From Blastococcus mobilis (GTDB lineage: Bacteria > Actinomycetota > Actinomycetes > Mycobacteriales > Geodermatophilaceae), in assembly GCF_900188025.1 (NCBI RefSeq), contig NZ_FZNO01000012.1, positions 94,390-158,389 on the forward strand: 64,000 nt of DNA, written 5' to 3'. This document shows, piece by piece, positions 2,315-20,078 of this stretch. Under the pieces are notes generated by a model. The model searched no databases, was not told where the DNA came from, and worked only from the letters and a program-made list of their open reading frames with translations. Every line of letters starts with the position of its first letter. Within the stretch, counting starts at the first letter, position 1. The position numbers and the translations under genes were made by a program.

Positions 2315-3595
2315 GTGAACGGCCGGCCCTCGGCCACCGCCCGGGCGACCCTGCAGGCCGTGGCCGTCTCCGTCCTCGGTGTGCTGCCGGCGTTCCTCGT
2401 GGGCGCGCTCGCCGTGCAGATCCGCGCCGACCTGGGCGTGGGGCTCGCGCTGTTCGGCTTCGCGGCCGCGACCCTGTTCGGGGTCTCCGGCGTGTGCGCC
2501 CGCCCCGGAGGCCGGCTCGTCCAGCGGCTCGGCTTCCGGAAGGGGACGGCGCTGGCCGCGGTCCTGTCCGTCGTGTCGCTGACGGCTGTCGGCCTCGCCC
2601 AGTCGGCGGTGTGGCTCATGGTCGGTCTGGCCATCGGCGGACTCGGGAACGCGGTGGCGCAGCCGTCGGCCAACCTCGGCATCTCCGAGCTGGTCACGGA
2701 GGCGCGCCTGGGTCTGGCGTTCGGCATCAAGCAGTCGTCCGTCCCGGCCGCCACCCTGTTGGGCGGGCTGGCGGTGCCCGGTATCGCGCTGGTCTTCGGC
2801 TGGCGCTGGGCCGTGGCCGCCGCGGTGGCGCTGGCGATCGCGCTGCTGGTCTGGTCGCAGGTCACCGGTCGTGACGCTCACGGCGGGTCGCGTCCCGCCG
2901 ATGGCGGCGCCCCCGACAAGGGCCTGCCCCGAGGCGGGCTCGTCGTCCTGACCCTGGGCGGCTTCCTGGGCTCGGCGGCGGCCACGCCCACGGGCGTCTT
3001 CCTCGTCGACTCGGCGGTGGCCTCGGGCGTCGCGCCGGGGACAGCCGGCCTGCTCTTCGCCGCCTGCTCCGTGCTCGGTCTGGGCAGCCGCGTCGGGTTC
3101 GGCTGGCTGGCCGACCGGCATCCCGACCGCAGCCGCTACCTGTTCATCGCCAACCTGCTCACCGGTGGGGCCGTCGGCTACGGCCTGCTGGCCACCGGCG
3201 AGGCCCCCATGGTCGTCGCGGGATCGCTGTTCGCCTACGGGATGGGCTGGGCCTGGACCGGGCTGTTCCACTTCGCCGTCGTCAAGGACAACCGTGCCGC
3301 GGCCGCCTCGGTGACCGGCTTCGTGCAGACCGGGCTCTCGCTCGGCGCGGCGACCGGGCCGCTCTTCTTCGGCATCGTGGCGCAGACGTTCTCCTACACG
3401 GCGGCCTGGCTGACCGCCGGCGTGCTGAGCCTGGCGGCGGCGGTCACCATCCGGGCCGGTCGCCGCATGGTCCGCCGCTCGCGTGGGCTGCCGGTGGCCG
3501 GGCTGCGCCGACGGGCACCGGCGGCCGACCCCCGGCCTGCAGGCACCGACGGGACCGCCACCCGCACGACCCCACCCAGAGAGAGGGCGACATGA
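2315..3595 (+). CDS. MFS transporter
   Basis: A 426-residue major facilitator with about 12 hydrophobic segments. It likely imports an organic acid for the adjacent enzymes. The first helix begins about residue 11 (AVSVLGVLPAFLVGALAVQI), and the loop between helices 8 and 9 carries FGWLADRHPDRSR, a typical MFS-like basic loop. GTG 2315 follows the upstream stop by 16 bp; the frame extends further upstream, but only over the end of the preceding gene. It resembles the leftward MFS protein that ends at 5175 (GMGWAWTGL versus CTGWAWAGL, and similar C termini), so the two are paralogues flanking the same cluster. The substrate is not visible from sequence. Confidence 0.85.
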   Translation: MNGRPSATARATLQAVAVSVLGVLPAFLVGALAVQIRADLGVGLALFGFAAATLFGVSGVCARPGGRLVQRLGFRKGTALAAVLSVVSLTAVGLAQSAVWLMVGLAIGGLGNAVAQPSANLGISELVTEARLGLAFGIKQSSVPAATLLGGLAVPGIALVFGWRWAVAAAVALAIALLVWSQVTGRDAHGGSRPADGGAPDKGLPRGGLVVLTLGGFLGSAAATPTGVFLVDSAVASGVAPGTAGLLFAACSVLGLGSRVGFGWLADRHPDRSRYLFIANLLTGGAVGYGLLATGEAPMVVAGSLFAYGMGWAWTGLFHFAVVKDNRAAAASVTGFVQTGLSLGAATGPLFFGIVAQTFSYTAAWLTAGVLSLAAAVTIRAGRRMVRRSRGLPVAGLRRRAPAADPRPAGTDGTATRTTPPRERAT

Positions 3596-16472: not shown

Positions 16473-16550
16473 ATGACGTTCGGACCGTTCGGCCGGCCGG
16501 GCGCCGGCGAGCTGTGGCCGCAGATCCAGACGGGAAGGGTGGGGGCATGA
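16473..16550 (+). CDS. Small open frame (25 aa) coupled to the TrxR-UGSC gene
   Basis: ATG 16473, preceded by GGGAG, opens a 25-codon frame containing TFGPFGRPGAGELWPQIQ. Its TGA (16548-16550) overlaps the ATG of the TrxR-UGSC gene as ATGA. It could be a leader peptide giving coupled translation, a small protein, or chance. It is proline/glycine-rich with no recognised family. Confidence 0.35.
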   Translation: MTFGPFGRPGAGELWPQIQTGRVGA

Positions 16551-17992
16551 CCGACTTCGACGTGGCAGTGGTCGGCGCGGGGGTCGCGGGGCTGACGGCG
16601 GCGCGGGTGGCGGCGGAGTCGGGGCTCCGCGTCGTCGCCTTCGACCGGCTCTCTCCCGGCGGTCAGCTGGTCAACCTGACGACCGTGCACGACTACCCGG
16701 AGCCGGGCGGGTCGGCGGAGTCCTGGCCGGTGGTCTCGGAACTGGTCGCCCGGGCGGAGGCCGCCGGGGTCACGATGCGCTTCGACGAGGTCACCCACGT
16801 GCGGGCCGGGGAGCCGGTGCGGCTGGAAACCGGGGGCGGCGACGTGACCGCGGGCGCGGTGGTGATCGCCACCGGACTCGGCAACGGACGGCTGGGGCTG
16901 CCCGGTGAGGAGGCGCTCGTCGGCCGGGGCCTGTCGACCTGCGCCGGTTGCGACGGTCCGCTCTACCGCGGCAAGGCCGTCGCCGTGGTCGGTGACGACG
17001 AGTGGACCGCCGAGGAGGCGCTCGAGCTCGCGGAGCTGGCGTCGGCGGTGACGGTGCTGGTGCCGGAGTTGCCGACCTGGTCGGCTGCGCGGGCCGAGCG
17101 GCTCGCCGCGGCCGACCGGGTCGCGGTGGTGACGGGCGCCACGGTCACCGCGGTGCACGCCGACGGTGTGCTGGAGGGGGTCACCGTCCGAACCGCCGAC
17201 GGGGAGCGCGAGCTCGCGGTGCAGGGCGTCTTCCCCTACGTCGGGCGCCGCGGACCGGCCGGGCTGGTCGAGGCCGCGCAGACCGACGAGGAGCAGCGGC
17301 TCGTCACCGAGGACGGCGTGCGCACCGCCGTCCCGACGATGTTCGTGGCCGGCGACGCCCGCGCCCGTGCCGGCCAGACGATGTCGGAGGCCATGGCCGA
17401 CGGGGTCGCGGCGGGCCAGGCGGCGGTGGCCGCGCTGCGCCCGGTGACCGGCCCGAGCCTGACGATCGTCGACCCGACGTCCGGCGTCCTGCCCGCGGAG
17501 GAGGAGGCCGGGTCGCTCGCCGGCGGGACCGCCGGCTGGACGCAGGTCGCGCTCTTCTCCAACTCCAAGCCGAACGCGACCGAACTGCTGCAGGGCATGG
17601 GGGAGCGGCTCAAGGAGCACTGGCAGCTGGCCGACCTGGGCTTCGCCAGCAAGCCGAACGCCTCCACGGCGGCCGACAAGGACACCATCGACTGGCTCGC
17701 CCAGTGCTACAGGATGGTGCTGGTGGCGGTCGGTGATTAGGGCTCGTGCTCGTCGTGGAGTTTCCATGACTCGGTCGAACTGGAGAAGCGTGGCGTCGTG
17801 GCACCCCTCGTGGTGACCGAGACGTTCCTGCCGCTGGTGGAGGCGCAGGCGAAGGCGCGGCGGCTGACCCCGCGCGTTCTCGTGGTGCCGCACCCGGTGG
17901 GCGGGCTGAACGGCGCGGAGTTGGCCGGCCGGATCGAGGCCGCGGCGGCCTCCCTGCTGCCGATGGCCGATCAGGCGCGAGGTACGGCATGA
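16547..17992 (+). CDS. Thioredoxin-reductase-like/UGSC selenoprotein, selenocysteine encoded by UAG
   Basis: Read through TAG 17738-17740, this is one 481-residue protein. Residues ~1-300 are a thioredoxin-reductase-like flavoprotein (VVGAGVAGLTAARVAAE; redox pair CAGC at 132-135; GDARARAGQTMSEA). The NADPH glycine motif is degenerate (AVVGDDEWTAEEA). Residues ~305-481 are a UGSC domain: IVDPTSGVLP, NSKPNATELLQ, then VAVGD-[UAG]-GSCSSWSFHDSVELEKRG and VVVPHPVGGL. In the UGSC family the residue before GSC is selenocysteine or cysteine, so TAG occupies the Sec site (residue 398). Codons after TAG keep strong GC3 bias and the family match continues for 83 codons to TGA, which overlaps the next ATG. 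A SECIS-like hairpin lies just downstream. If TAG were a true stop, a 397-residue protein lacking the redox motif would result. Confidence 0.85.
17752..17770 (+). promoter_or_regulatory. Bacterial SECIS-like hairpin for UAG-directed selenocysteine insertion
   Basis: GUCGUGG (17752-17758) pairs with CCAUGAC (17764-17770) over seven base pairs including one G-U, leaving a five-base loop AGUUU. The loop has G at its second position followed by U, and that G lies 19 nt after the UAG. This fits the known bacterial SECIS rules (short stem, small loop with an early G, ~16-37 nt from the codon). The underlying codons AGT TTC CAT are unusually AT-rich for this gene, as expected if RNA structure constrains them. 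Confidence 0.7.
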
Positions 17993-19032
17993 CCTCGGCC
18001 GTGTCGGACGGCGTGCTCGACCTGGTCGGCGTCACGGAGGACACCTGGCAGGAGGAGGCGCTCGCGCGCGGCTGGGGTGACGGGCTGCCGCTCGTGGCCC
18101 CGACGCCGGCGCGGGTCGAGGCAGCGCTGCGTGCCCTGGAAGGCAGGGAGCTGGAGCTGGGTCCGCTCCCGCCGTCCGGGCTCGTACCGACCCGGCAGAG
18201 TTTCGCCGCGAACGCGGTGATGGCCGGCTGCCGGCCGGCCGATCTGCCGGTGGTGCTGGCGGCGCTGCGGGCGATGCTCGCCCCGGAGTACAACCTGCAC
18301 GGCGTGCTGGCGACGACGCACCCGTGCGCGCCGCTGGTGATCGTCAACGGTCCGGTGCGGACGTCGCTCGGCATCAACTGCGGCACCAACTGCTTCGGCC
18401 AGGGCACGCGGGCCAACGCGGTGATCGGGCGAGCGGTGCAGCTGCTCACGATGAACGTCGGCGGCGCGCGGCCGGGGTCGATGGACCGCGCGACGCAGGG
18501 CAATCCGGCCAAGTACTCGTGGTGCTTCGGCGAGAACGAGGAGGAGAGCCCGTTCGAGCCGTACTCGGTGCGCCGCGGGTTCGCCCCGGGGGAGTCGGTG
18601 GTGACGGTGGCCGCGGCGGAGGGTCCGCACAACATCAACGACCACGGCAGCACGACCGGCGAGGGGCTGCTGATGACCATCGCCGGGACGATGGCGCAGA
18701 CGGGATCGAACAACCTGTACGTGAAGGGCCCGCACTTCCTGGTGCTCGGGCCGGAGCACGCGGCGACGCTGCACCGCGACGGGTGGACGGTCGAGGCGCT
18801 GCGGGAACGGCTGTGGGAGCAGGCGCGCATCCCGGTGTCCCAGGTGTCGGAGGAGAACCACCGCCAGTTCGAGGACTGGGGTGTGCAACCCGACGGCGGC
18901 TTCTACACGGTCAGCACCGGCCCGGAGGTGCTGCACATCCTGGTCGCGGGAGGGGCGGGCAAGCACTCCGCGTGGATCCCCTCGTTCGGCGCGACGGCCG
19001 CCGTGTCGCGCCCGGTGCCGGTCCGCGAATGA
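17989..19032 (+). CDS. Conserved protein of unknown function, UGSC-operon partner A
   Basis: A 347-residue protein starting at an ATG that overlaps the UGSC stop by four bases, so it is translated in step with the selenoprotein. I recognise it as a conserved uncharacterised family but know no function. Visible motifs are WGDGLPLVAPT near residue 25, FAANAVMAGCRPADLPVV, TTHPCAPLVIVNGP, GTRANAVIGRA, GNPAKYSWCFGENEE and VAGGAGKHSAW near the C terminus. Cysteines are conserved around CGTNC. There is no signal peptide or membrane segment. The next gene is a divergent paralogue with the same motif order. Tight coupling suggests the pair works with the selenoprotein. Confidence 0.8.
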   Translation: MTSAVSDGVLDLVGVTEDTWQEEALARGWGDGLPLVAPTPARVEAALRALEGRELELGPLPPSGLVPTRQSFAANAVMAGCRPADLPVVLAALRAMLAPEYNLHGVLATTHPCAPLVIVNGPVRTSLGINCGTNCFGQGTRANAVIGRAVQLLTMNVGGARPGSMDRATQGNPAKYSWCFGENEEESPFEPYSVRRGFAPGESVVTVAAAEGPHNINDHGSTTGEGLLMTIAGTMAQTGSNNLYVKGPHFLVLGPEHAATLHRDGWTVEALRERLWEQARIPVSQVSEENHRQFEDWGVQPDGGFYTVSTGPEVLHILVAGGAGKHSAWIPSFGATAAVSRPVPVRE

Positions 19033-20078
19033 CCGCTGCCGGGAGTCTGCCGGTGGCGGCCGACGACGCCGATCCTTCCGCCGTGCTCGTGGAGCTGCTC
19101 GCGGCCGGGCACGGTGACGGCCTGCCCGTGGTGCCGCCGACGGCCACCCGTCTCTCCGCCATGCTGGCCGGGGTGCGCGACGCCGACGTGTCCTACGGGC
19201 AGGTCCCACCCCTGTTCGGCGATCTGACGGTGCGCGCCGTCGCCTGGTACGCGGTGCTGGCGGGGTGCCGGCCGGCCGAGCTGCCGCTGGTGGTGGCCGC
19301 GTGCCGTGCAGCCCTGGACGACTCGTTCAACCTGCTCGGCATCGCGACGACGACCGGCGCCCCGGCGGTGGCCGTGCTGGTGCACGGGCCGGTGGCCTCC
19401 CGGCTGGGTCTGACGTCGGGCTCCGGCGGGCTCGGCACGGGTAACCGTGCCAATGCCGGCGTGGGGAGGGCGGTGTCCCTGGCGCTGGCCGGACTGGGTG
19501 GTGCGACGGCGGGGCTGACGGACATGACGACCATCGGCTCGCCGGCGAAGTACACGTGTTGCACCGCCGAGGTGCGGCGGGGGCCGCTGCCCTCGCTGGC
19601 GCAGCGGCGGGCGCTCGGGGTGGACGTCGACGCCGTGACGGTGGTGGGGGCCGCCGGTCTGGTGGAGGTGCTGCCGGGGGAGGGATATCGGGAGCCGCCG
19701 TCCGTGCTGGGTCCGGCCGCCGCGGGGATGGCGGGGGTCGCTCTGGCCGCAGGGGACCCGGCGCGCGCCGGGCAGTCCGAGCAGTTCCTGCTCCTGCCGC
19801 CGGAGCCGGCCGAGCTGCTGGCGATGCACGGGTGGGGGTACGACCGGATCGCCGGGTTCCTGTTCGAACAGGGGAACGCGCTCCTGCGGACCGGGGCGTC
19901 CGCACTGGCCTTCCGTGCCGCGGTGCCGGCCTACGCGGCCGACGACCTCCGGGTGGCCGCGTCGGCGGACGACGTCCACGTCGTCGTCACGGGCGGGGCG
20001 GGCGTGAAGATGCTCCTGCTGCCCCCATGGACGGGCGGATCCCGTTCGGTGACCGCGCCCGTCCTGCCGCTCGAGTGA
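19029..20078 (+). CDS. Conserved protein of unknown function, UGSC-operon partner B (paralogue)
   Basis: A 349-residue paralogue of the preceding gene, with ATG overlapping its stop by four bases. Shared motifs in the same order: HGDGLPVVPPT, AVLAGCRPAELPLVV, GTGNRANAGVGRA, GSPAKYTCCTAE and VTGGAGVKMLL. It lacks the CGTNC segment (SGSGG instead) and the HNINDH segment of partner A. A heteromeric complex or successive catalytic roles are possible, but nothing in the sequence fixes this. It ends the rightward UGSC operon. Confidence 0.78.
   Translation: MTAAGSLPVAADDADPSAVLVELLAAGHGDGLPVVPPTATRLSAMLAGVRDADVSYGQVPPLFGDLTVRAVAWYAVLAGCRPAELPLVVAACRAALDDSFNLLGIATTTGAPAVAVLVHGPVASRLGLTSGSGGLGTGNRANAGVGRAVSLALAGLGGATAGLTDMTTIGSPAKYTCCTAEVRRGPLPSLAQRRALGVDVDAVTVVGAAGLVEVLPGEGYREPPSVLGPAAAGMAGVALAAGDPARAGQSEQFLLLPPEPAELLAMHGWGYDRIAGFLFEQGNALLRTGASALAFRAAVPAYAADDLRVAASADDVHVVVTGGAGVKMLLLPPWTGGSRSVTAPVLPLE

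Follow-up and report, generated by a model that had tools for sequence, protein, structure and literature searches.

An in-frame UAG in a gene of Blastococcus mobilis is very probably read as selenocysteine (Sec) by a tRNASec with the anticodon CUA; the product would then be a 481-residue fusion of a thioredoxin-reductase-like domain with a UGSC domain. The codon occupies positions 17738–17740 of the forward strand of the window, the whole 64,000-nucleotide stretch of DNA that was analysed, and lies within an ORF at 16547–17992 (+). Decoding as Sec is favoured because the sole tRNASec found in the genome has the matching anticodon, and because distant relatives carry UGA, the usual Sec codon, at the same site.

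The use of UAG for Sec in the Geodermatophilaceae, UGSC-motif genes included, was already published in 2016–2017. PMC5330540 reports a CUA tRNASec in three genomes of the family, cites Mukai et al. 2016 for the formate dehydrogenase and UGSC-motif selenoproteins of these organisms, and extends the list by a Blastococcus saxobsidens AhpC with a Sec-TAG; brief statements that UAG specifies Sec in Blastococcus, and that some bacteria use UAG for Sec, appear in PMC5133445 and PMC8124441, respectively. An earlier note on this DNA had pointed to such a precedent in Geodermatophilus and Blastococcus, and the CUA tRNASec and the three gene types with UAG in PMC5330540 bear this out. As far as that text goes, the present case matches it in family, in anticodon and in having UAG in UGSC-motif and formate dehydrogenase genes, with no difference in decoding mode. 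As the variant is already known from the family, the ORF is a strong further example of it and not a new kind. No description of the reductase–UGSC fusion, or of its operon, was found in the accessible text of the openly licensed literature.

The fused gene and its orthologues

The ORF consists of 397 codons, the TAG, a further 83 codons and a TGA at 17990–17992 that overlaps the ATG of the next gene at 17989; its frame-1 translation reads M...VAVGD-[TAG]-GSCSSWSFHDSVELEKRG...ARGTA-[TGA]. Residues about 1–297 constitute the thioredoxin-reductase-like domain, with a CAGC motif at Cys132/Cys135, and residues about 307–470 the UGSC domain, in which the TAG (residue 398) falls exactly at the U of U-G-S-C and Cys401 completes the motif. 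Read through in full, the protein scores 116.9 bits against the Pfam UGSC family (PF24696; cut-off 25), and its NCBIfam UGSC score rises from 30.0 bits without read-through to 106.6 bits with it. The latter score, obtained on the C-terminal 196 residues, is below the cut-off of 125 for the equivalog NF041046 (UGSC family (seleno)protein), and the fusion is therefore not assigned to that equivalog. The N-terminal domain is called only reductase-like, since it reaches 194.5 bits against TIGR01292 (the thioredoxin-disulfide reductase equivalog), where the cut-off is 343.45, though its fold and C-x-x-C motif fit.

A structure model (43 rows; mean pLDDT 86.0, pTM 0.73) shows a reductase fold and a UGSC domain of alternating strands and helices, joined by a low-confidence linker at residues 301–324, with residue 398 just ahead of a helix. 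The 50 Foldseek matches listed for the fusion are all reductases, and are thus uninformative about the UGSC fold, for which sequence searching gave no convincing solved-structure relative.

A scan of named genomes returned 23 loci, one of which (L229) was dropped because only 34 residues matched, leaving 22 with the site. The codon there is TAG in all nine loci from Geodermatophilus and Blastococcus, and TGA in all 13 others, whose hosts are Alphaproteobacteria, including Xanthobacter, together with Pseudonocardia and a Streptosporangiales metagenome-assembled genome (MAG). A UCA tRNASec was found in 12 of these 13 hosts, with none seen in the 13th, a 2.8-Mb MAG, and a CUA tRNASec in each of the three TAG hosts tested, out of nine. 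In an alignment of UGSC homologues, of the kind suggested in the earlier note, the TAG site lines up with UGA or Cys. The TGA relatives are orthologues of the present gene, which shares with the UGA-encoded UGSC selenoproteins of PMC2398784 (PF24696) the U-G-S-C motif, the domain and a downstream hairpin. It differs from them in having UAG, and in being fused to a reductase-like domain, although that paper describes a UGSC/Unknown_1 fusion of its own.

The in-frame reductase–UGSC fusion, with the TAG as its only stop, is present at all 18 family loci inspected (one of them partial) as well as in the window, and across the family survey and the scan of named genomes was found only in the Geodermatophilaceae. 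Among the TGA relatives, 10 of 13 have a reductase gene immediately upstream of the UGSC gene, either out of frame with it or separated from it by a stop; L223 carries the reductase gene on the opposite strand, and the flanking DNA examined for L222 and L226 showed none. The separate reductase of these ten loci lends some appeal to a selenium switch, by which the cell would make the 397-residue reductase under selenium shortage and the full selenoprotein under selenium supply, as the short product would approximate the ancestral reductase plus half of a UGSC domain. Such a switch is compatible with Sec read-through, but would require the truncated UGSC half to be harmless, and is considered improbable.

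Two genes directly downstream, at 17989–19032 (+; 347 amino acids) and 19029–20078 (+), encode paralogues with 34% identity to one another, neither of which has a Pfam match. All 22 loci, which span Alphaproteobacteria and Actinobacteria, keep both of them beside the selenoprotein gene; this points to a conserved Sec-codon operon in the two groups, and the products of the two genes probably work with the fusion protein. The first has more than 6000 database relatives, no solved relative detectable by sequence, and as its best Foldseek match a fumarase with a TM-score of 0.25. Upstream, CoA ligase and enoyl-CoA hydratase genes are kept in all nine family loci; the flanks examined in the TGA relatives held no close match to either, with an enoyl-CoA hydratase at 27–31% identity in 3 of 13.

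Conservation beyond the UAG

Were the TAG a true stop, the product would be a reductase of 397 residues and the 83 codons that follow a remnant, or the TAG itself would be a sequencing error. A complete reductase domain does precede the TAG, and the best 120 of 1606 matching public database proteins all end at the residue before it, as automatic annotation would give. Against this, all 19 Geodermatophilaceae fusions inspected and all nine isolates with names have the TAG at this site, making a sequencing error very unlikely, and the C-terminal part is 83 codons long in all 19. Over 171 pairs drawn from the 19 family members, pN/pS is 0.415 across 66 codons before the TAG and 0.462 across 75 codons after it, whereas the two shifted frames give 1.5 and 1.64; as judged by this ratio, selection on the codons after the TAG resembles that before it. 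With a hairpin also standing in register behind the codon (see below), termination at this TAG is scarcely credible.

The basic observation, a TAG in a conserved open frame, is confirmed. What the earlier note had described, a TAG at the U of U-G-S-C followed by 83 codons that retain frame, third-position bias and family similarity, and then a TGA overlapping the next start, agrees with the GC content at third codon positions (0.952 5′ of the TAG and 0.880 3′ of it), with the pN/pS values and with the rise in UGSC score. Its preference for genetic-code variation over a pseudogene is likewise upheld by the invariant TAG, the selection maintained beyond it and the CUA tRNASec of the genome. An annotation error is thereby exposed, with the best 120 entries, that of Blastococcus saxobsidens DD2 among them, lacking the last sixth of the protein.

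The SECIS hairpin

A predicted SECIS hairpin lies at 17752–17770 (+), with a 7-bp stem and a loop at 17759–17763. Numbering from the T of the TAG as 1, bases 15–21 pair with 27–33 around a loop at 22–26, and G23-U24 fall at 17760–17761. This is the register of E. coli fdhF, the checked sequence of which has GGUCU at 22–26, and in whose hairpin G23, U24 and U17 are important. By sequence and pairing the structure 3′ of the TAG qualifies as a SECIS, and SelB is predicted to bind it.

The comparison covered 81 Sec-codon sites (59 distinct sequences), made up of 19 fusion TAG, 18 other UGSC TAG, 13 UGSC TGA and 31 formate dehydrogenase TAG sites. G23 and U24 are present at all 81, and 97.8% of stem pairs are formed, as against 24–51% when the partner strand is slid by 1–4 bases. 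Among UGSC sites, both sides vary at pairs 19–29, 20–28 and 21–27, and 7 of the 13 TGA genes do not form pair 15–33. Cys homologues, for which 12 loci were tried and nine sites were readable, have G23-U24 in no case and form 2–5 of the seven pairs. When the window codons were redrawn synonymously, all seven pairs arose in 3385 of 20000 draws (17%), but together with G23-U24 in only 27 of 20000; the stem forms often by chance and the combination rarely, so that a stem by itself is weak evidence and the two together are strong evidence. When both strands of the 64-kb window were searched for stop codons that have an in-register G23-U24 and at least six of seven stem pairs behind them, with the frame open on both sides, a single TAG came up, that at 17738, and no TGA or TAA.

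The loop in the window is AGUUU, as in the 13 TGA relatives, and AGUCU in the other 18 fusions. A serine codon AGT stands at positions 22–24 in 50 of 50 UGSC Sec sites; in 30 ORFs of the window, 8 of the 457 serine codons are AGT. The orthologues provide a clean natural experiment, since they share the hairpin loop but have UGA in some and UAG in others, and any tRNASec found in a host matches its codon.

Selenocysteine machinery of the genome

The genome holding the window (G000) is 5.09 Mb in size and 99.99% complete. Its sole tRNASec, at C65:81524–81615, scores 67 bits in Rfam (gathering score 47) and has the anticodon CUA; a second match (48.2 bits) also exceeds the Sec gathering score, but it is a tRNA-Ser(UGA), which the general tRNA model fits better. 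Downstream of the tRNASec gene are selA (422.6 bits; cut-off 267.9) and selB (287.6 bits; cut-off 242.25), and selD (385.3 bits; cut-off 125) is divergent on its opposite side. The CUA selC that the earlier note had suggested looking for is thus present, adjoined by selA, selB and selD, all above their cut-offs.

That the UAG specifies pyrrolysine, or some other amino acid brought in by a suppressor tRNA, is extremely improbable: although ARAGORN calls the CUA tRNA a tRNA-Pyl, Rfam identifies the same gene as tRNASec, nearly the same sequence occurs with UCA in sister genomes, the homologues have Cys or a UGA Sec codon at the site, and the best match in the genome to pylS, the gene that pyrrolysine decoding would need, has 22.1 bits against a cut-off of 178.15.

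TAG also occupies the Sec site of two further genes of the genome, one of them a second UGSC gene (C54:337645) and the other a formate dehydrogenase gene on C61. The second UGSC gene has the loop AGUGU, and the ORF upstream of it a CPTC motif. Among 30 ORFs picked in the window, one ends in TAG. Rfam at gathering scores gave no RNA in the window; a 97-base tRNA-Ala(CGC) called by ARAGORN at 3189–3285 lies inside an ORF and lacks Rfam support, and for these reasons is probably spurious.

Proposed decoding and enzyme mechanism

In the proposed pathway, SelA would make Sec-tRNASec(CUA) with the selenophosphate supplied by SelD, and SelB would bind the hairpin and deliver the charged tRNA at UAG 17738, competing with release factor 1 and not release factor 2. 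A move from UGA to UAG swaps the competing release factor 2 for release factor 1, and UAG codons elsewhere that lack the hairpin would still terminate translation.

From the motifs and the gene fusion, electrons are expected to pass from NADPH through FAD and Cys132/Cys135 to a Sec398–Cys401 selenenyl sulfide, the fused reductase recharging the Sec motif in cis. The animal Sec-containing thioredoxin reductase is a flavin reductase that feeds a Sec redox pair within one chain. The fusion is predicted to resemble it in combining reductase and Sec redox pair in a single chain, but is unlike it in enzyme class, and in having its Sec in a separate folded domain and encoded by UAG.

A broader proposal, put forward tentatively and with slightly less than an even chance of being right, is that the reductase and UGSC protein, separate elsewhere, were fused in the Geodermatophilaceae so that NADPH could reduce the Sec motif in cis, and that the fusion and the two paralogues encoded downstream make up a selenium-dependent reductase system not described before, whose UGA would have become UAG, with the SECIS kept, when the anticodon changed once in a single ancestor.

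Origin of the UAG codon in the Geodermatophilaceae

The family survey comprised 112 genomes, 54 of which held a total of 95 UGSC matches: 72 with one in-frame TAG and 23 free of stops, with no TGA or TAA. Of these matches, 52 were inspected individually; two stop-free ones with scores in the same range as the fusion (G108, G060) proved to be Cys-type proteins, with no reductase match in the DNA examined. At E ≤ 1e-9, 108 genomes yielded 110 tRNASec genes, of which 102 have CUA and 8 have UCA; four genomes gave none, and all 48 genomes with a TAG-UGSC match also have a CUA tRNASec. UCA occurs alone in seven fragmented genomes, 76–98% complete, from three genera (g5, g6 and g7), and alongside CUA in G058. 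The UCA tRNASec of g5–g7 is otherwise very like the CUA type, a candidate pre-switch state as far as the tRNA goes.

Formate dehydrogenase (TIGR01553) matches are present in 100 of the 112 genomes. TAG is found at 29 of the 30 loci inspected, the remaining one, in G079, being without the Sec-site stretch; the B. mobilis genome and G058 also have TAG. Two sets of apparent UGA-Sec genes were discarded: the rows marked as holding one TGA for TIGR01591 in G071, G073 and G074, all considered as UGA-Sec in UCA lineages, where the TGA is an ordinary stop in G071 and G073, and the G079 match with a TGA, where the stretch bearing the Sec site has been lost.

The anticodon arm reads GGTC-TTCAAA-ACC in the UCA genes, except that of G058, versus GGCC-TCTAAA-GCC in the CUA genes, the two types thus differing also by a paired change beside the anticodon. 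In a 397-genome sample of the order, from which the g5–g7 genomes were left out, the CUA pattern occurs in 75 family genomes and one other (G246), and the UCA pattern in 167 genomes, with G058 the only family member among them. In a SelB tree of 27 rows, which includes several long outgroup branches and drew a tool warning that two of these may attract each other, the 16 CUA carriers form one clade (100/100), with g5 (UCA) adjacent (98/98). The placing of the CUA carriers in a single SelB clade beside UCA lineages of the family makes one codon switch likely, and a single anticodon switch within the Geodermatophilaceae would be the simplest reading. With UCA lineages beside a CUA clade in one family, it becomes testable how a Sec codon that had competed with release factor 2 can come to compete with release factor 1.

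In addition to a CUA tRNASec and a formate dehydrogenase gene with TAG, G058 carries a second, foreign-looking tRNASec with UCA (G058:C17:1173–1263), located at the end of a contig close to transposase-like ORFs. Dual decoding of UAG and UGA as Sec in this genome was considered and left as a lead: the UCA contig has no selA, selB or selD match, its four SECIS-like TGA places are not convincing, and the genome has one SelB at E ≤ 1e-62. In G246, which belongs to another family and has its own UCA tRNASec, the CUA tRNASec sits on a 4.8-kb contig (C194) with pieces of selA and selD that are 83–89% identical to those of the B. mobilis genome; this contig is probably contamination.
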